From assembly GCF_003323715.1 (NCBI RefSeq), contig NZ_QOIN01000043.1, forward strand, positions 124,001 through 188,000: a stretch of DNA of 64,000 nt. Reading direction: 5' to 3'. This DNA comes from Streptomyces diacarni. Lineage in GTDB: Bacteria; Actinomycetota; Actinomycetes; Streptomycetales; Streptomycetaceae. The translations under genes were made by a program, and so were the position numbers. The notes below the pieces were generated by a model. That model had not been told where the DNA came from and did no database searches. It was given only the letters and a program-made list of their open reading frames with translations. Below, piece by piece: positions 1,219 to 54,555 of the stretch. Numbering within the stretch: the first letter of the stretch is position 1; each line of letters opens with the position of its first letter.

Positions 1219-2781
1219 TTACCAAAAATCGGGCAGGCTGTACCGGTAGGTGTTGGTCTGGTGCCAGTAGTGGTTGCCGTCCACCCACGCGGCCACGCCC
1301 CGCAGGAAGCGCAGCACGCTCGGGACGGGGCAGGCGGCGGCCAGGGCGGCGGCCTCGGTTTCGAAGGTGTGCATGAGGTCGTTGTGGACCTCGACCGCCT
1401 TCAGGTAGGCGTCCCTTTCGGAGAGGCCCTCACGTTCGGCGATCACGACAGGCAGATTGAGGTGCGTGCCCGGGCTCTTGAGTTCCTTGGTGTACGAGTA
1501 GAGGTCGTTGACGAGAGTGGTGGCATTGCCGGCGAGCGCGATGACCCGCTGCATGGCGGGCCTGGCGTGCAGATCGGCCGGCAACTCGTAGCCGCCGACG
1601 GTGTCGGTGATCGTGGGGCACGGGCGGAAGTTGTTGAACTGGCGCATTGCCAGGTATTCCCACACCTCGGGCATGTGTTCCGTCTGCGCCCACGCGGCCT
1701 CCGCGAGGTACCCCAGGTGCAGACGGGACATGTCGTGCCGGTACCTGTCGGCCTGGGAGTCAGACGCCTTCCGCACGAAGTACTCCATCGCCGAGCGATA
1801 GGCGCGCCGAGGAGCATCCGACTGGAGCGACTCCACCCACGCAGACTCGTACTCCCCCGTCGTGTGCAGCGGGTCGAGAGCCGTGTGCGCGAGCAGGAGA
1901 CGGCTGCCGAGGCCGATGGGCGAGCCGCCGTGGTCCTCGCAGTAGCAGTCGTCGACCGCGTTCTCCGCGACCATCAGCCGCGTGGCGACCATCAGATGTT
2001 CGATGGTGGGAGCGTCCGGATGACAGGCGACCATGTAGCGGCCGACGGAGAAGCCGTCGAACTCCTCCTCCCACTCCGGCGGGTAGGCCTGGACCTCGTC
2101 CACCGCCCACCTCTTGATCCTGCGGCTGACCTCCCCCACCCGCGCCGGGTCGGGCTCGGGCACCGGGTGGTAGTAGAGCCCGGGGATCGGCTCGCCCTGC
2201 GCCGGGGGCTGGGATGTCCCGAACGCTGGGGGCGCCTGGGACGCCTGGGACACTGGGGGCGCCGGGGGCGCCTGGGACACTGGGGGCGCCGGGGGCGCCG
2301 GGGGCGCCGGGGGCGCCGGGGAGACGACGTCACGCCCGCCAGGGCGCAGGCTCGACGTGCCCGGCCCGCTGGGGCCGCACAGGATCCGTTCCAGGACCGA
2401 GCTCGCCTGCCCCGCCTGCGTCGCCGGGGCAGCGTTCTCCTCCGTACACCGGGGGGTCGGTTCACCACCCGTGCCGTCGTCGCACCCGGGCGCGGGCTCG
2501 GACACCGCCTCGGACACCGCTTCCGGAGCGGGCTGGGGCTCGGGCATGTGCGCGGGCGCGGACTCGGCCACGGGTGCGGACTCACGCTCCTCGCGAAGGG
2601 CCTCCCCTGCGGCAGGGGCCTCCCCTACGGCAGGAAAAGGGAAGGGGAACGCAGGGGGGCCTGGCAGAGTGAGCAGAGCGTCTTCCCCGGCTTCGGCCTC
2701 GTCAGCGGAGGCGGCGGCAGGGGCCCGGGCCGCAGCCGCAGGCGTGCTCGACTGCTGAGGGGAAGACCCAGGATCGGGCAT
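1219..2781 (-). CDS. tpc: 2-Methylisoborneol synthase (terpene cyclase)
   Basis: 520 aa. It cyclises 2-methyl-GPP to 2-methylisoborneol. The class I terpene synthase Mg-binding motifs are visible: the Asp-rich motif in DDCYCEDH and the NSE/DTE-type motif in NDLYSYTKE. The catalytic part is the C-terminal ~330 residues. The N-terminal ~190 residues are Ala/Pro/Glu-rich and disordered-looking, and include an APPAPP/VSQ repeat encoded by short tandem DNA repeats. The S. coelicolor homologue is about 440 aa, so this one has an extended head. The start at 2781 has GAAGGAG 8 bases upstream; an in-frame ATG 45 bases further out lacks this. In many streptomycetes a cyclic-nucleotide-binding gene (cnb) precedes this pair. 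None is present here. Confidence 0.95.
   Translation of the reverse strand: MPDPGSSPQQSSTPAAAARAPAAASADEAEAGEDALLTLPGPPAFPFPFPAVGEAPAAGEALREERESAPVAESAPAHMPEPQPAPEAVSEAVSEPAPGCDDGTGGEPTPRCTEENAAPATQAGQASSVLERILCGPSGPGTSSLRPGGRDVVSPAPPAPPAPPAPPVSQAPPAPPVSQASQAPPAFGTSQPPAQGEPIPGLYYHPVPEPDPARVGEVSRRIKRWAVDEVQAYPPEWEEEFDGFSVGRYMVACHPDAPTIEHLMVATRLMVAENAVDDCYCEDHGGSPIGLGSRLLLAHTALDPLHTTGEYESAWVESLQSDAPRRAYRSAMEYFVRKASDSQADRYRHDMSRLHLGYLAEAAWAQTEHMPEVWEYLAMRQFNNFRPCPTITDTVGGYELPADLHARPAMQRVIALAGNATTLVNDLYSYTKELKSPGTHLNLPVVIAEREGLSERDAYLKAVEVHNDLMHTFETEAAALAAACPVPSVLRFLRGVAAWVDGNHYWHQTNTYRYSLPDFW
2244..2321. repeat. GC-rich tandem repeats inside the cyclase gene
   Basis: A 27-base unit is repeated perfectly at 2244-2270 and 2271-2297. 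It is followed by a 9-base unit (CGCCGGGGG) repeated to about 2321. In the protein this gives alternating APP and VSQ blocks in the disordered N-terminal head. Copy number should vary readily by slippage without breaking the frame, since both units are multiples of three. Confidence 0.85.
2598..2633. repeat. 18-bp tandem duplication in the cyclase head
   Basis: Two adjacent 18-base copies, 2598-2615 and 2616-2633, differ at a single base. The unit is in frame and duplicates an Ala-Gly-Glu-Ala segment of the cyclase N-terminal extension. Confidence 0.75.
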
Positions 2782-3111
2782 CCGTAACTCCTTCGCGACG
2801 GTGGTGATCGGCGTACGCGGCGGCAACCGAGCAAGAACGGAAGAGTGGTGAACATCGGGAAATCCGCTCAGCTCCCCGAGAACCAGTTAACGTCCGGCCC
2901 GCCCGGCTCGTCCCACGAGCCCGGTGGAGTTACTCCGATGCAGTGATCTCGCGCCGCGCCGGGTTTATCCAGGCGACGAGCAACACCCGGAGGACGTGCT
3001 CGGCAACGTGTTCGACGGCATGCCATGGTCGAAGGCACGCATGGTCACCCACGCCCGCCCTGCCTCACCCCGATCCCTGCCCCGTGACGCGCCATGGACC
3101 GGACGCGTCCG
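2782..3111. other. Intergenic, promoter region of the methylisoborneol pair
   Basis: 330 bases between the cyclase start and the stop of the endonuclease V-like gene. The cyclase promoter should lie near 2800-2950, on the minus strand. I could not place convincing -35 and -10 boxes, and no cnb gene or remnant of one is visible in any frame. Confidence 0.5.
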
Positions 3112-18826: not shown

Positions 18827-18981
18827 GTGCACCATCCTGGCGCGGCGGGCGGCTGGACGCACACGGGTTGTCCGCTGCGCGCCCCCTGGTGGGCGTGCGC
18901 GCGTTCGTATTAGCTTGCCCCACCGCTTCTTGGCCCGCTCACCGCTTCGCTGCACCCTTCTCGCTGGAAGGACGGTTCCTG

Positions 18982-20283
18982 ATGACCCGTACTCCCTCTC
19001 GTCGTTTCCTGATGGCCGGCGGCACGGCCGCCGCCTTCGCCACCCCGTTGCTGGGGCACACGGCTATCGCGGCACCGCCGGACCGGTCGGGGGGCGGACA
19101 CGGCGGGCGGCGGGTGACGCCGGGCGCCGACGTGGCGGCGGCCGAAGGGTGGCGCGTACTGCGGGGCCGGAAGGTCGGTGTCGTCAGCAATCCGACGGGA
19201 GTGCTGAGGGACGCCCGGCACGTGGTCGACTCGATGGCCGAAAGGGACGAGTTGCACATCGTCGGTGTCTTCGGCCCCGAACACGGCTTCCGGGGCAGCG
19301 CGCAGGCGGGCGATTCCGAACCCGAGTTCGAAGACCCCCGCACCGGTCTGACGGTCTACGACGCGTACGGCGCGGACGCGGCGAAGATGGCCGCTCTCTT
19401 CCGCAAGGCCGGAGTCGACACGGTCGTCTTCGACATCCAGGACGTGGGGGTGCGCTTCTACACCTACATCTGGACGATGTACCACGCGATGGTCGCCGCC
19501 CGGGACATCGGAGCGGCCTTCGTCGTCCTGGACCGGCCGAACCCGATCGGGCGCAGAGCCGACGGCCCGCTGCTGACACCGGAGTACGCCTCCGGTGTCG
19601 GCCTCAAGCCGATCATCCAGCAGCACGGCATGACCGTGGGCGAGCTGGCTCGCTACTTCAACGGCGAGCTGCTGCCCGTCGATGGCGACGGCGGCGCAGT
19701 CGAGCTGGAGGTCGTACAGGTGCGCGGCTGGTCTCCCCGTACGACAGCACAGCACACGGGGCTGCCCTGGGTGCCGCCGTCCCCGAACATGCCGACGCCC
19801 GACACCGCCACCGCCTACGCGGGCACCGGCTACTTCGAGGGAACGAACCTGTCCGAGGGGCGGGGCACCACCCAGCCGTTCCAGTTCGTCGGAGCGCCCT
19901 ATCTGGACTACCACTACAGCGACCGCCTCAACGCCCTGCGCCTGCCGGGTGTGCGTTTTCGTGAGGGCTATTTCGTGCCCACCTTCAGCAAGCACGAGGG
20001 CAAGACCTGCGCGGGTGTCCAGCTCCTGGTGACCGACCCGGAACGGTACGAGGCGGTGCCGACCGCTGTCGCCATGCTGCGGGAGGCCATGCGGTACGAC
20101 GACTTCGCCTGGCGCAAGGATCCCGACACGAAGCGGCCGTACTGGATCGACAAACTGTCGGGCTCTCCGCGGCTGCGGAAGATGCTCGACGCGGGCGCGT
20201 CCCTGGACGAGGTCACCGGATCCTGGCGCCGTGAAGTCCGCGACTTCGAGCGGACCAGGCGGCGGTACCTGCTCTACCGGTGA
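18982..20283 (+). CDS. namZ: Exported exo-beta-N-acetylmuramidase, NamZ family (DUF1343)
   Basis: 433 aa. A Tat-type signal (SRRFLMAGGTAAAFATP) exports it folded. The mature part shows the DUF1343 stretches VGVVSNPTGVLRD, GVFGPEHGFRG, DIQDVGVRFYTYIWTM and LDRPNPIG. NamZ of Bacteroidetes and Bacillus removes MurNAc from the non-reducing end of wall fragments, so this enzyme probably works in wall turnover outside the cell. GGAAGGA stands 9 bases before the ATG. No uptake or MurNAc-processing genes are adjacent. Confidence 0.85.
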   Translation: MTRTPSRRFLMAGGTAAAFATPLLGHTAIAAPPDRSGGGHGGRRVTPGADVAAAEGWRVLRGRKVGVVSNPTGVLRDARHVVDSMAERDELHIVGVFGPEHGFRGSAQAGDSEPEFEDPRTGLTVYDAYGADAAKMAALFRKAGVDTVVFDIQDVGVRFYTYIWTMYHAMVAARDIGAAFVVLDRPNPIGRRADGPLLTPEYASGVGLKPIIQQHGMTVGELARYFNGELLPVDGDGGAVELEVVQVRGWSPRTTAQHTGLPWVPPSPNMPTPDTATAYAGTGYFEGTNLSEGRGTTQPFQFVGAPYLDYHYSDRLNALRLPGVRFREGYFVPTFSKHEGKTCAGVQLLVTDPERYEAVPTAVAMLREAMRYDDFAWRKDPDTKRPYWIDKLSGSPRLRKMLDAGASLDEVTGSWRREVRDFERTRRRYLLYR

Positions 20284-49713: not shown

Positions 49714-50571
49714 TCACTTGAGGCCGACGCCCGCGTAGGCCATGTACCGGGGCAGCGCGTCGGCGCCCGGCAACGCACCGTCCGGGCGCCACAGCGGTAC
49801 CTGAACCAGCCCCGGGTCGAGCAGGTCGAAGCCCGCGAAGAAGGGAAGCACTTCCTCGTAGCTGCGGATGCGGGCGCTGACCGTCGACTCGCTGTCGTAC
49901 ACGCCGGTGGCCTTGTTGACGGCCGAACCGCCTCCGAAGTCCGGGGAGCCATGGCTGAGGATCAGACAGCTGCCGGCGGGCAGCGACTCGGTCAGCGACG
50001 CGACGATGCCGGCGGGGTCCTCGTCGTCCCTGAGGAAGTGCAGGACGGCGAGGAGCATCAGCGCGACCGGCTGGTCGAAATCGATGAGCTGCCGGGTGAC
50101 GGGATGGTCCAGGATGCCCTTGGGGTCGCGGATGTCCGCCAGGACGAAACCGGCGTCGCCGGAGTGCGTCAGCTTCGCGTCGGCGTAGGTCGCGACGATC
50201 GGGTCGTTGTCCGCGTAGACCACCCGTACGTCGGAACGGACGTCGCGGGCGACCTCGTGGGTGTTGGGCGAAGTCGGGATGCCGGTGCCGATGTCGATGA
50301 TCTGCCGGATACCGTGCTCGGCCACGACGGTGCGCACAGCGCGGTGCATGAAGTCGCGGTTGCCCCGTGCGGTCTCCCGGATGCCGGGGAGGGCGTCCAG
50401 CACGCGCCGGGCCGCACGCTGGTCGGCCTCGTAGTTGTCCTTGCCTCCCAGGTAGTAGTCGTACATCCGGGCCGGATGCGGGGTGGTGGTGTCTATCAGC
50501 TCCGGGCTGAATCCGGCGTCGGACACGCTCTTCTCCGTCTCGTTCTGTTCTGTCGGCACGTGCTTCTTCAC
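49714..50571 (-). CDS. SAM-dependent methyltransferase, Methyltransf_19 (DUF574)
   Basis: 285 aa. The opening (HPARMYDYYLGGKDNYEADQ), the SAM motif IIDIGTGIPTSPNTHEVA and YADNDPIVATYADA define the streptomycete SAM-dependent methyltransferase family PF04672, which occurs in dozens of copies per genome next to XRE/DUF397 genes. The target is unknown. The GTG at 50571 has GAGG upstream; a second GTG shortly after is possible. It follows the DUF397 gene by 89 bases on the same strand, suggesting a shared transcript with the regulator genes. Confidence 0.85.
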   Translation of the reverse strand: MKKHVPTEQNETEKSVSDAGFSPELIDTTTPHPARMYDYYLGGKDNYEADQRAARRVLDALPGIRETARGNRDFMHRAVRTVVAEHGIRQIIDIGTGIPTSPNTHEVARDVRSDVRVVYADNDPIVATYADAKLTHSGDAGFVLADIRDPKGILDHPVTRQLIDFDQPVALMLLAVLHFLRDDEDPAGIVASLTESLPAGSCLILSHGSPDFGGGSAVNKATGVYDSESTVSARIRSYEEVLPFFAGFDLLDPGLVQVPLWRPDGALPGADALPRYMAYAGVGLK

Positions 50572-50660
50572 CGAGTGTCGACCTCGGTCACGGGCGGAGC
50601 CTGGGCCGGGCTCGCTTCTCGTCGCCGCCGGCCTGGGCCCTCCCGCGGGCCTGGCGGGGG

Positions 50661-50897
50661 TCAGGCCACCAGGAAGTCGGCTTCGCCCGCCTTCGCCGCC
50701 TGGATGAGCCCGGAGATGTCGCTGCGGCTGCAGATGAGTGCGGGGCCGTCGGGATCGGTGGACTGGCGCAGCGCCACCCGCCCGTCCGCGAGCTCCAGCG
50801 CTTCCACACAGCTGCCTCCGTTCCCTCCGCTCCAGGGCTTGCGCCAGCCCTCGCTGCCGAGGTGTGCCGCGGGCATCCCGTTGTAGATACGACCCAT
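50661..50897 (-). CDS. DUF397 small regulatory partner protein
   Basis: 78 aa. WRKPWSGGNGGSCVEALEL, VALRQSTDPDGPALICSRSD and a closing FL motif are the DUF397 hallmarks. In streptomycetes these small acidic proteins are encoded next to WhiJ-like XRE regulators and appear to antagonise or tune them. Its ATG at 50897 lies only three bases from the XRE stop, so the two are tightly coupled. Confidence 0.9.
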   Translation of the reverse strand: MGRIYNGMPAAHLGSEGWRKPWSGGNGGSCVEALELADGRVALRQSTDPDGPALICSRSDISGLIQAAKAGEADFLVA

Positions 50898-50900
50898 GGT

Positions 50901-51773
50901 TCAGATCTCCTTGCGCAGGGCACTCAGGACCGCCCGGGTCCGCGCCACCGGCACGGCCTGGGCACTCATCCGGTCCACCGCCTCGAGGAACATGCTGACG
51001 TCGTCCCGCTGGTCGAAGTAGACCGCGCCCACCAGGCTCTCGGCACACACCATGTCGGGCAGCTCGTCGAGGGGGAACCGGAAGAGGTGGAAGGGCCCGT
51101 ACATGGCCGGATGCGGTCCCGCGCTGAAGGGCATGATCTGCAGCGCGACGTTCGGCCTTTCGATGGCCCTCAGAAGGTGGTCGATCTGCTCGCGCATCAC
51201 CTCGGGCCCGCCGAGGTGGCGCCGCAGGACCGTCTCGTCGATCACACTCCACAGCAGCGGCGGATCCGTCTCGCGGGTCAGCACCGTCTGGCGCTCCATG
51301 CGCAGCGCCACGCCGCGCTTGATCTCGCCTTCCGGCGCGTGCGGCATACCGGCGCGCAGGACGGCTCTGGCGTAGCTCTCGGTCTGCAGGAGACCGGGTA
51401 CGTAGTGCGGCTCGTAGGAGCGGATGACTTCGGACTCGCTCTCCAGGCTCACGAAGACGCTGAACCACTCGGGCAGCACGTCGCGGTAGCGGTGCCACCA
51501 GCCGGGCTGGTTGGCCTCCCGGGCGAGCGAGACGAAGCCGTCTATCTCCTCCTGCTCGGTCACCCCGTAGGTGCGCAGCAGTTTCTCCACGTAGGGGACT
51601 TTGAGGCCGACCTCGGCCTTCTCCATCCGGCGGATGGTGGCGTGGGTGACGTCGAGGGCTCTTCCGGCCTGCTCGAAAGTCACTCCCGCGCGCTCCCGCA
51701 GGTGCTGCAGCCTCTTGCCCAGCACCACACGCAGCACGGTGGGCGCTCCGCCGCCCGTCCGTGAATCCGCCAC
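50901..51773 (-). CDS. WhiJ-like XRE regulator with DUF5753
   Basis: 290 aa from a GTG with GGAGGGGAG upstream. An N-terminal helix-turn-helix (LGKRLQHLRERAGVTFEQAGRALDVTHATIRRMEKAE, residues about 18-55) is followed by the DUF5753 domain (SYEPHYVPGLLQTESYARAVL, then RMERQ, PLLWSVIDETVLRR). WhiJ-type regulators repress development until relieved by a DUF397 partner or other signals. The next gene downstream is such a partner, and the divergent gene is an RsbW-like ATPase, giving the complete three-gene arrangement known from the whiJ and abaA loci. Confidence 0.9.
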   Translation of the reverse strand: MADSRTGGGAPTVLRVVLGKRLQHLRERAGVTFEQAGRALDVTHATIRRMEKAEVGLKVPYVEKLLRTYGVTEQEEIDGFVSLAREANQPGWWHRYRDVLPEWFSVFVSLESESEVIRSYEPHYVPGLLQTESYARAVLRAGMPHAPEGEIKRGVALRMERQTVLTRETDPPLLWSVIDETVLRRHLGGPEVMREQIDHLLRAIERPNVALQIMPFSAGPHPAMYGPFHLFRFPLDELPDMVCAESLVGAVYFDQRDDVSMFLEAVDRMSAQAVPVARTRAVLSALRKEI

Positions 51774-51789
51774 AGCCGCTCCCCTCCAA

Positions 51790-51802
51790 CTGACGTCGTC
51801 AG
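51790..51802. promoter_or_regulatory. Palindrome in the leader of the XRE gene
   Basis: CTGACGTCGTCAG is a perfect 13-base palindrome around one central base, 16 bases upstream of the XRE GTG. A second, imperfect one (TCTG-N7-CAGA, 51853-51867) lies in the same divergent region. Either could be an autoregulatory site. Confidence 0.4.
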
Positions 51803-51910
51803 GGGGAAGTTTGGCATGTGCCCGCCCGCATGCACACCCTGTCATCCACACTTCTGCAATTAACAGATTGATCCTTGCCATACGCGAGTGACGAACCGCA
51901 TAGTGGAGCC

Positions 51911-52408
51911 GTGGCTGCCCCCCATGACGCCCTGCCCTTAAACCACCGACCGAGCGGCTTGCCGACGACTCGTCCACTGCGCGACGCGTTCCACTTGCCG
52001 GCACGGGACACCTCCGTCGCCGTCGCCCGCGCCCGCGTACTGGAGAGACTCCGGGAGTGGTACGTCGACGATGAGTCGAGTGCCGACGCCCAGCTGTTGA
52101 TGTCGGAGCTGTTCACCAACGCGGTGCGCCACACGGACAGCGAGAAGGTCAGCTGCGAGCTGTGGGTGATCGGCGTGCGTCTGCGCCTCGAGGTCACGGA
52201 CGAGGGCGGAGCAGACTCGGCGGCGCGCGTCGAGCGCGCGGTCGTTCCCCGGCCGGGGGACGGCGAGGGCGAGAGCGGAAGAGGCCTGCTGCTGGTGAGC
52301 GTGCTCGCCGACGACTGGGGAATACGCAAGGCTCAGACGGGCGGCTCCGACCTGGTGACCGGGCACGCCGTGTGGGCCGAGCTGGAATGCAACAGGACAC
52401 AGAGCTGA
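51911..52408 (+). CDS. RsbW/anti-sigma-like ATP-binding protein with a TTA codon
   Basis: 165 aa. The GHKL-type ATPase domain shows the N box SELFTNAVRHT (near residue 70) and the Gly-rich lid ESGRGLLLVSVLADDWG. Such proteins in WhiJ/AbaA clusters are thought to act as anti-sigma-like or signalling partners. Codon 10 (51938-51940) is TTA, the leucine codon read by the bldA tRNA. The GTG at 51911 is favoured; a TTG 36 bases earlier would only lengthen the head and keep the TTA. It is divergent from the XRE gene. Confidence 0.82.
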   Translation: MAAPHDALPLNHRPSGLPTTRPLRDAFHLPARDTSVAVARARVLERLREWYVDDESSADAQLLMSELFTNAVRHTDSEKVSCELWVIGVRLRLEVTDEGGADSAARVERAVVPRPGDGEGESGRGLLLVSVLADDWGIRKAQTGGSDLVTGHAVWAELECNRTQS

Positions 52409-52554: not shown

Positions 52555-53145
52555 GTGTCCGCACGATCCGTGCCAAGGCAACGGAACGGGATGTCCCGGC
52601 TATCCCTGACAGCGGCGCTGACAGCCGCCGTACTCGCGGCGGTCACCGCCTGCACCAGCACGAAGACCACCGCGGGCAACGGGGACGAGGTGGAACTCGT
52701 GCACTCGGGCAAGCTCACCACCTGCACGCACCTGCCCTACATGCCCTTCCAGTACAAGAAGGGCAAAGAGGTCGTCGGGTTCGACGTCGACCTGGTCGAT
52801 CTGATCGCCAAGGACCTCGACGTCGAGCAGGAGATCGTGGACACCCCCTTCGAGGGCATCCAGACCGGCGAGGACCTGAACGCGAGCAAGTGCGACCTGG
52901 CCGCCGCGGGCATGACCATCACGTCCGTACGCGAGAAGAACCTCGACTTCTCCCGCCCCTACTTCGAGGCGACACAGGCCCTTTTGGTCAAGAAGGGCGC
53001 GGAGTACGACTCTCTCGACGACCTCGAGGGCAAGAAGCTGGGTGTCCAGCAGTCCACCACGGGTGAGGAGTACGCCAAGAAGCACGCCGACGGCGCCAAG
53101 ACGGTCCAGTTCGAGGACCTCGGCCTGCTTCTGCCGACCGGGTGA
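52555..53145 (+). pseudogene. Truncated amino-acid ABC substrate-binding lipoprotein
   Basis: 196 codons from a GTG with GGAGG upstream. A lipoprotein signal (LTAALTAAVLAAVTAC) leads to a polar amino-acid-binding domain (PF00497; THLPYMPFQYKKGKEVVGFDVDLVDLIAKDL, DLAAAGMTITSVREKNLDFSRPYF). Family members are about 270-300 aa. Here the second lobe is lost just after TVQFEDLGLLL, where the frame runs into the tail of an ATPase gene and stops. It may still be made as a half protein but should not bind ligand normally. Confidence 0.8.
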
Positions 53146-53360
53146 TCTTCATGGACGGCGGTGTCGTCGTCGAGGAGGGACCACCGGAGCAGGTGGTGAC
53201 CGACCCGCGGCACGCGCGCACCCGCGCCTTCCTCGCCCGGGTTCTCGACCCCGCCGCCGCGGACGTGCTGGAGCACGAGTCGCACCCCTCCCCGCAGCAG
53301 CCGTCGACGCCCACGAACCTGGCGGCGGAACCGAAGGAGGGCCCCGGCGAGCCCCCGTGA
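53133..53360 (+). pseudogene. C-terminal remnant of the cognate ABC ATPase
   Basis: From 53133 the plus-strand frame reads ADRVIFMDGGVVVEEGPPEQ and then a tail of about 50 residues to a TGA at 53358-53360. This is the usual end of a GlnQ/HisP-type amino-acid ABC ATPase, directly after the H-loop. Everything before it (Walker A, signature, Walker B) is absent. Together with the truncated binding protein it marks an internal deletion that removed the permease. Confidence 0.75.
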
Positions 53361-53514
53361 GGCGAAGCTCCATGCCGCCATGGCGGGGAATGCCTCCGTC
53401 CGCTGCGTCTGGGAGGGCAGGCTGTCAGACCCTCCCTCTACATTCGTAAGCCACACCGACTTCGCGTGTTCACCGGTGCCCTCGGGCGACCGGAGCGGAC
53501 GAAAGGCATGGAAG

Positions 53515-54555
53515 ATGGCAGACAGCCCCCGCACAGCGGACGCTCCAGCGGACCGGCCGCTCGGCAGCGCCGAAGAACTGCTGGAGCAGGCGAAGCCGTA
53601 CCGCACCGAGCTGCTGGCACACTGCTACCGCATGCTGGGCTCGGTGCACGACGCCGAGGACCTGGTGCAGGACACCTACCTGCGCGCGTGGCGGGCAGGC
53701 GACCGCTTCGAGGGAAGGTCCTCGCTGCGCACGTGGCTCTACCGCATCGCCACCAACGCCTGCCTGACGGCGATCGAGCAGCGGGGACGCCGCCCGATGC
53801 CCTCCGGACTCGGTGCGCCCACCGACGATCCGGAACGTCCGGTGACCGAAGCGCCGGAAGTGCCCTGGCTGGAGCCGATCCCGGACGCGATGTTCACGGG
53901 TTCCTCGGGCCCCACGGACCCCGCCTCGGTCGTGGTGCACCGCTCTTCCATGCGGTTGGCGCTGGTGGCGGCTCTCCAGCATCTTCCGGCCAGGCAGCGT
54001 GCCGTCCTCCTGCTGCGGGACGTCCTCAAGTGGCGGGCCGCCGAGGTCGCCGAGCTGCTCGACACCACGACGGCGAGCGTGAACAGCGCGCTGCAGCGGG
54101 CCCGCGCCCACCTGGAGCAGGCCGCCCCCGTGGAGGAGGAGCTGTCCGAGCCCACGGATCCGGCCTCGCGTGAACTTCTGGACCGCTACGCGGCGGCGTT
54201 CGAGCGCTCCGACGTGACCGCCATCGTCGATCTGTTCAAGGAAGACGCCGTCTGGGAGATGCCTCCCTTCGCGCAGTGGTTCCGTGGCCGGGAGAACGTC
54301 GTCCGGCTCATCGGCGCCCAGTGCCCGATCCCCCGCGACGCGGGCCTCATGCTGCCGACCACGGCGAACGGCCAGCCCGCCTTCGGCCTCTACAGCCTGC
54401 ACGAGGACGGCAACTACCGGCCGTTCCACCTCCAGGTGCTCACCCTGCGGGACGGGCAGGTCGCCCATGTGGGGGCGTTCTTCGGCGACGGACTCTTCCC
54501 GCTCTTCGGTCTGCCGGAAACCGTGACCGCGCAGGAGGCCGCCGCCCGGCGCTGA
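53515..54555 (+). CDS. ECF sigma factor with C-terminal SnoaL-like domain
   Basis: 346 aa. Sigma region 2 (ELLAHCYRMLGSVHDAEDLVQDTYLRAWRA, near residue 30) and region 4 (ALQHLPARQRAVLLLRDVLKWRAAEVAELLDTTTASVNSALQRAR, near 155) are intact. The last ~120 residues form a SnoaL/NTF2-like domain (RYAAAFERSDVTAIVDLFKEDAVWEMPP, GLPETVT). Sigma factors of this SigG/SigX5-like type carry their own regulatory domain, and no anti-sigma gene is adjacent. The ATG at 53515 has AAAGG upstream; a longer frame begins in non-coding sequence. Confidence 0.87.
   Translation: MADSPRTADAPADRPLGSAEELLEQAKPYRTELLAHCYRMLGSVHDAEDLVQDTYLRAWRAGDRFEGRSSLRTWLYRIATNACLTAIEQRGRRPMPSGLGAPTDDPERPVTEAPEVPWLEPIPDAMFTGSSGPTDPASVVVHRSSMRLALVAALQHLPARQRAVLLLRDVLKWRAAEVAELLDTTTASVNSALQRARAHLEQAAPVEEELSEPTDPASRELLDRYAAAFERSDVTAIVDLFKEDAVWEMPPFAQWFRGRENVVRLIGAQCPIPRDAGLMLPTTANGQPAFGLYSLHEDGNYRPFHLQVLTLRDGQVAHVGAFFGDGLFPLFGLPETVTAQEAAARR

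Follow-up and report, generated by a model that had tools for sequence, protein, structure and literature searches.

The DNA analysed here (the window, 64,000 nucleotides of Streptomyces diacarni, contig NZ_QOIN01000043.1) contains a gene cluster of the Sco1979 family that likely forms a developmental switch, in which a regulator acting at a palindrome would control a divergent ATPase gene with a leaderless, bldA-gated mRNA. The cluster and its control elements consist of the following features.

51911..52408, plus strand: AbaA-like ATPase gene with HATPase_c_2 domain and predicted RsbW/SpoIIAB fold; GTG start, 165 aa; Pfam PF13581, E 2.9e-14
51938..51940, plus strand: TTA, codon 10 of the ATPase gene, read from the sequence
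51875..51904, plus strand: promoter TTGCCA-18-CATAGT, 6 bases 5' of the GTG; predicted leaderless start
51853..51867, no strand: palindrome TCTGCAATTAACAGA, candidate operator of the regulator; arms conserved, two places in its own genome
50901..51773, minus strand: WhiJ-like XRE-DUF5753 regulator of the Sco1979 family, 290 aa; Pfam HTH_31 and DUF5753, NCBIfam NF058600
50661..50897, minus strand: DUF397 (BldB-like) gene; PF04149, E 1.8e-12; adjacent in 67/69 loci
49714..50571, minus strand: Methyltransf_19 gene; PF04672, E 2.5e-98; present in 54/69 loci

An earlier note on this DNA had described an ATPase gene divergent from an XRE-DUF5753 regulator gene, with DUF397 and Methyltransf_19 genes behind the latter; all four were found in place by reading frames and Pfam. 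The ATG of the DUF397 gene (50897) lies 3 bases beyond the regulator stop codon (50901-50903), and codon 10 of the ATPase gene is TTA as described, in frame with the GTG at 51911. That no other gene of the window carries a TTA codon, as also claimed, held within a crude gene call of 48 ORFs picked by codon-position GC. Two further TTA codons are located in 5' extensions before likelier ATG starts (1219-2826, minus strand, and 18868-20283, plus strand), and the remaining ones are in frames that show no coding bias or lie opposite a better gene. Beyond the cluster, 52555-53360 resembles the remnant of a deletion: a solute-binding gene of family 3, truncated to SBP_bac_3 positions 1-95 of 132, leads into a different frame that reads like the C-terminus of an ABC-transporter ATPase. 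Two genes further on from the ATPase gene, 53425-54555 encodes an ECF-type sigma factor with a C-terminal SnoaL_2 domain.

The regulator scored 452.7 bits against the Sco1979 equivalog model NF058600 (cut-off 350). It is therefore a member of the NCBI Sco1979 family, and the cluster is of the SCO1978-1980 type. DUF397 and HATPase genes adjoin the regulator gene, also in the orthologous loci, as is typical of whiJ/bldB/abaA-type clusters. The same genome encodes six Sco1979-family regulators over the NF058600 cut-off and contains 31 DUF397 matches, some of which are fragments of one gene. Regulators at least about 60% identical are present in 182 of 198 genomes of the genus, and the window's own group (at least 70% identical) in roughly 35 of them. 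A more widespread sister group, with about 60% identity to the window's group, scores higher on the Sco1979 model (470 bits for one of its regulators versus 453 for that of the window). Because the sister group is commoner and scores higher, the window's group is probably paralogous to SCO1979/1980; the higher score also suggests, as a lead and not a proof, that the sister group may be the true SCO1979/1980 group.

TTGCCA-18-CATAGT is the only sigma-70-like promoter detected in the region (1 found versus 0.1 expected in shuffled sequences). Given its position 6 bases ahead of the GTG, transcription would begin on this codon or directly beside it, and the ATPase mRNA is therefore predicted to be leaderless, starting at the GTG or within a base or so. 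Among 80 orthologous loci drawn from GTDB genomes, 69 have the same promoter-GTG arrangement and constitute the set counted below. In these, the start codon is always GTG, the -35 element is TTGCCA in 68/69, and the spacing is unchanged in nearly all. Some more of the 80 loci have a variant -10 element (CACACT) at equal distance, including L098 and L118, both of which were seen by eye to carry TTA at codon 10 too.

Conservation of the TTA codon in orthologues, by which the earlier note had proposed to judge its reading, was found in 38 of the 69 loci, always at codon 10, although these counts come from related sequences and are not independent events. Another leucine codon occupies the position in 16 loci and a non-leucine codon in 15. 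TTA is absent from the remaining approximately 10,628 ATPase codons of the 69 loci; none of the 1017 leucine codons from codon 16 onward is TTA, and leucine codon 8 is CTC, CTG or CTT. On a tree of the ATPase genes built without the first 15 codons, most of the major clades contain TTA genes, and the minimum number of changes is 8. In pairs of genes less than 55% identical in which both have leucine at this position, TTA is shared in 73%; apart from it, the preferred codon CTG attains this level. The leucine residue itself is unlikely to be the conserved feature, since residues 1-19 have very low AlphaFold confidence and residue 10 falls in this predicted disordered tail. From this sequence comparison we conclude that TTA at codon 10 is kept by selection across many species. 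The 31 loci without TTA include those of the rather close S. cacaoi (CTG) and S. boncukensis (TTC), and the putative gate is therefore common but dispensable. In the locus L044 (G043:C23), codon 10 of the ATPase gene is TCA and codon 4 is TTA, possibly a shifted position of the TTA signal.

In the same loci, TTA was found in none of 67 regulator genes, in one of 67 DUF397 genes and in three of 54 methyltransferase genes. The codon is thus nearly confined to the ATPase gene and marks the ATPase arm. One locus for tRNA-Leu(UAA), for which ARAGORN calls the anticodon TAA, was found in the genome with the bldA sequence of S. coelicolor as query. The earlier note had proposed that the ATPase arm is timed by bldA and the repressor arm is not. 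This proposal is supported in part. It gains from the TTA being under selection and nearly confined to the ATPase gene, from the presence of the tRNA-Leu(UAA) gene and from the conserved leaderless start, and is weakened by the 31 TTA-less orthologues. Comparative genomics gives good support to a bldA-gated ATPase arm, through the TTA at codon 10, the TTA-free regulator gene, the promoter and the sister group. TTA genes can be bldA-independent, with exceptions observed in S. clavuligerus (PMC5133688). In S. himastatinicus (L117), where the ATPase gene also contains TTA, TTA codons occupy positions 2, 7 and 12 in the extended frame of the methyltransferase gene, and some of them may precede the true start.

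The sister group was represented by 20 loci (L185-L204) chosen by the operator pattern and not by TTA. In 19 of these the arrangement TTGCCA...GATAGT-7-GTG is followed by TTA at codon 7, showing that the leaderless design is shared; in one of the 19 (L195) a codon is inserted and TTA is found at codon 8, still in frame. The following codons GGA ACA (codons 8 and 9) are invariant in 19/19 sister genes. This uncommon pair is kept beyond apparent protein need and points to a nucleotide constraint at that place. In another Sco1979-type group (L153-L163) the palindrome is longer, ACTCTGAAAWTTTCAGAGT, and the ATPase gene has no TTA; many members have a second palindrome-like sequence, GTGAACCAGTTCAC, near the expected transcription start. 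The chances are about even that a position-fixed UUA 7-10 codons into a leaderless mRNA acts with a family-specific operator as a two-input gate of ancient origin on the ATPase arm alone of Sco1979-family clusters, with the regulator and the bldA tRNA as inputs; two or more orthologous groups would share this gate, and some lineages would have lost it.

The palindrome TCTG-N7-CAGA is located just upstream of the -35 element, 57-59 bases 5' of the GTG. Its arms are exact in 54/69 loci and have at most one mismatch in 68/69. With one mismatch allowed, the pattern TCTGYAAWTNRCAGA occurs in its own genome only here and in a paralogous cluster on contig C33. A wide palindrome regulon was ruled out, with these two sites only in the genome. 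A longer pattern (palindrome, spacer and CTTGCCA, at most two mismatches) was found once in 112 of 198 genomes of the genus (twice in one of them), the reversed control of this pattern gave no match in the 198 genomes, and all 20 of 20 fetched places adjoin a homologue of the window's regulator. We infer that the regulator binds this palindrome as a candidate operator. The paralogous cluster (L071, G000:C33, about 536200-537000) has the same palindrome and promoter and no TTA, and its promoter is separated from the ATPase gene by a leaderless ORF of approximately 54 codons.

Three other explanations of the TTA codon were weighed against bldA gating. If translation began 3' of the TTA, the codon would be left unread, and it fits such a start that the ATPase domain begins only after about residue 22 and that a TTG is present at 51959 in the window. 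However, this TTG is not conserved among the orthologues, and 69 loci keep the GTG at an unchanged distance from the promoter. A search for a conserved downstream start in the orthologues found none, so that no start 3' of 51940, which the earlier note had named as fatal to its reading, is conserved; we regard this explanation as highly improbable. It is also conceivable that TTA is a chance codon without regulatory effect, inherited among relatives. Rare codons do arise by chance and 31/69 orthologues do without this one, but the codon has survived deep divergence as well as a preferred codon, and at a single position only, and the sister group has the same design, which makes mere inheritance improbable.

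A constraint on the DNA or RNA of the first codons, in the form of an AT-rich leaderless 5' end or of a site read as TTAGGG/TTAGGA, could keep TTA in place of bldA. The third positions of codons 2, 5, 7 and 10 have an AT content of 0.62-0.77, compared with mostly 0.03-0.35 for the other codons to 25, and TTA is followed by GGG in many loci and by GGA ACA in all 19 sister genes. On the other hand, codon 8 of this stretch, also a leucine codon, is never TTA, GAA, GAG, AGG or AAC are also seen after TTA, a conserved RNA fold around TTA was looked for and none was found, and in L195 the TTA stays in frame in spite of the inserted codon. Taken with this evidence, such a constraint is an unlikely reason for the conservation.

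Under bldA gating, the cluster would operate as follows. The regulator and its DUF397 partner probably bind the palindrome 5' of the -35 element, and the bound regulator probably controls the divergent ATPase promoter as well as its own gene. The ATPase mRNA, to judge from the conserved spacing, would be leaderless, starting from the GTG or about a base off. Late growth is the phase in which the bldA tRNA abounds, and only then are UUA codons read efficiently. Because codon 10 is TTA, the transcribed ATPase gene would yield protein efficiently only when this tRNA is abundant. The ATPase would then need promoter control and the bldA tRNA together, whereas the regulator and the DUF397 protein would need transcription alone. 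From its predicted fold, the ATPase probably serves as an RsbW-type anti-sigma factor or a similar developmental switch.

The best Foldseek matches of the ATPase are SpoIIAB and RsbW, and the N box ELFTNAVRH and the GRGL motif are largely or fully invariant among the orthologues. The protein thus resembles the RsbW/SpoIIAB anti-sigma kinases in predicted fold and ATP-binding boxes and differs from them in its equivalog score, 21.9 bits against the RsbW cut-off of 145, and is therefore only termed RsbW-like. It would likely act in an RsbW-like manner on a sigma factor or an antagonist. The Methyltransf_19 gene, which the earlier note had put forward as a possible output of the switch, is a conserved neighbour of the cluster (54/69 loci). 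The open-licence literature on this methyltransferase family, and that on leaderless mRNAs with TTA, yielded nothing on this cluster.

AbaA-like genes carrying TTA are already known, including the neighbour of SCO1979. The AbaA-like SCO1980 (9/14 Streptomyces), SCO3423 (12/14), SCO5460 and SCO6156 are frequent TTA carriers, and the TTA gene beside SCO1979 has been singled out (Chandra and Chater, 2013; PMC4255298). The exact position of the TTA, the leaderless start, the palindrome and the asymmetry of the two arms are added here. In the earlier literature that we found, TTA in AbaA-like genes appears as a per-gene tally. The present analysis links it to a single codon position, to a leaderless start and to a defined palindrome, and a possible role of bldA in WhiJ-type circuits therefore becomes directly testable. 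Moreover, a candidate operator is now at hand for a regulator family with few known targets. Paralogues of abaA are strongly up without BldB, and overexpression of abaA6 impairs sporulation (Avramova et al.; PMC10294661).

Like adpA and other bldA-dependent genes, the ATPase gene has an in-frame TTA conserved between species, here in 55% of orthologues and not in all, and with bldA control predicted from sequence. The SCO1978-SCO1979-SCO1980 cluster of S. coelicolor also combines a Sco1979-family regulator with DUF397 and ATPase neighbours and TTA in the ATPase gene only; the two were likened through the family model. The window's group differs from the more widespread sister group in carrying TTA at codon 10 and not at codon 7. 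The whiJ9-bldB9-iosA cluster of S. venezuelae shares a divergent leaderless target, a DUF397 partner and intergenic binding of the regulator, which is shown there and inferred here (PMC10294661). WhiJ9 is required to activate iosA, in contrast to the repressor role that the earlier note had assumed for the regulator of the window, and binds direct repeats 113 bp upstream (PMC10294661). Unlike the product of the divergent gene in the window, IosA is not an ATPase, and TTA is not mentioned for that cluster (PMC10294661), whereas it is present in the ATPase gene of the window.
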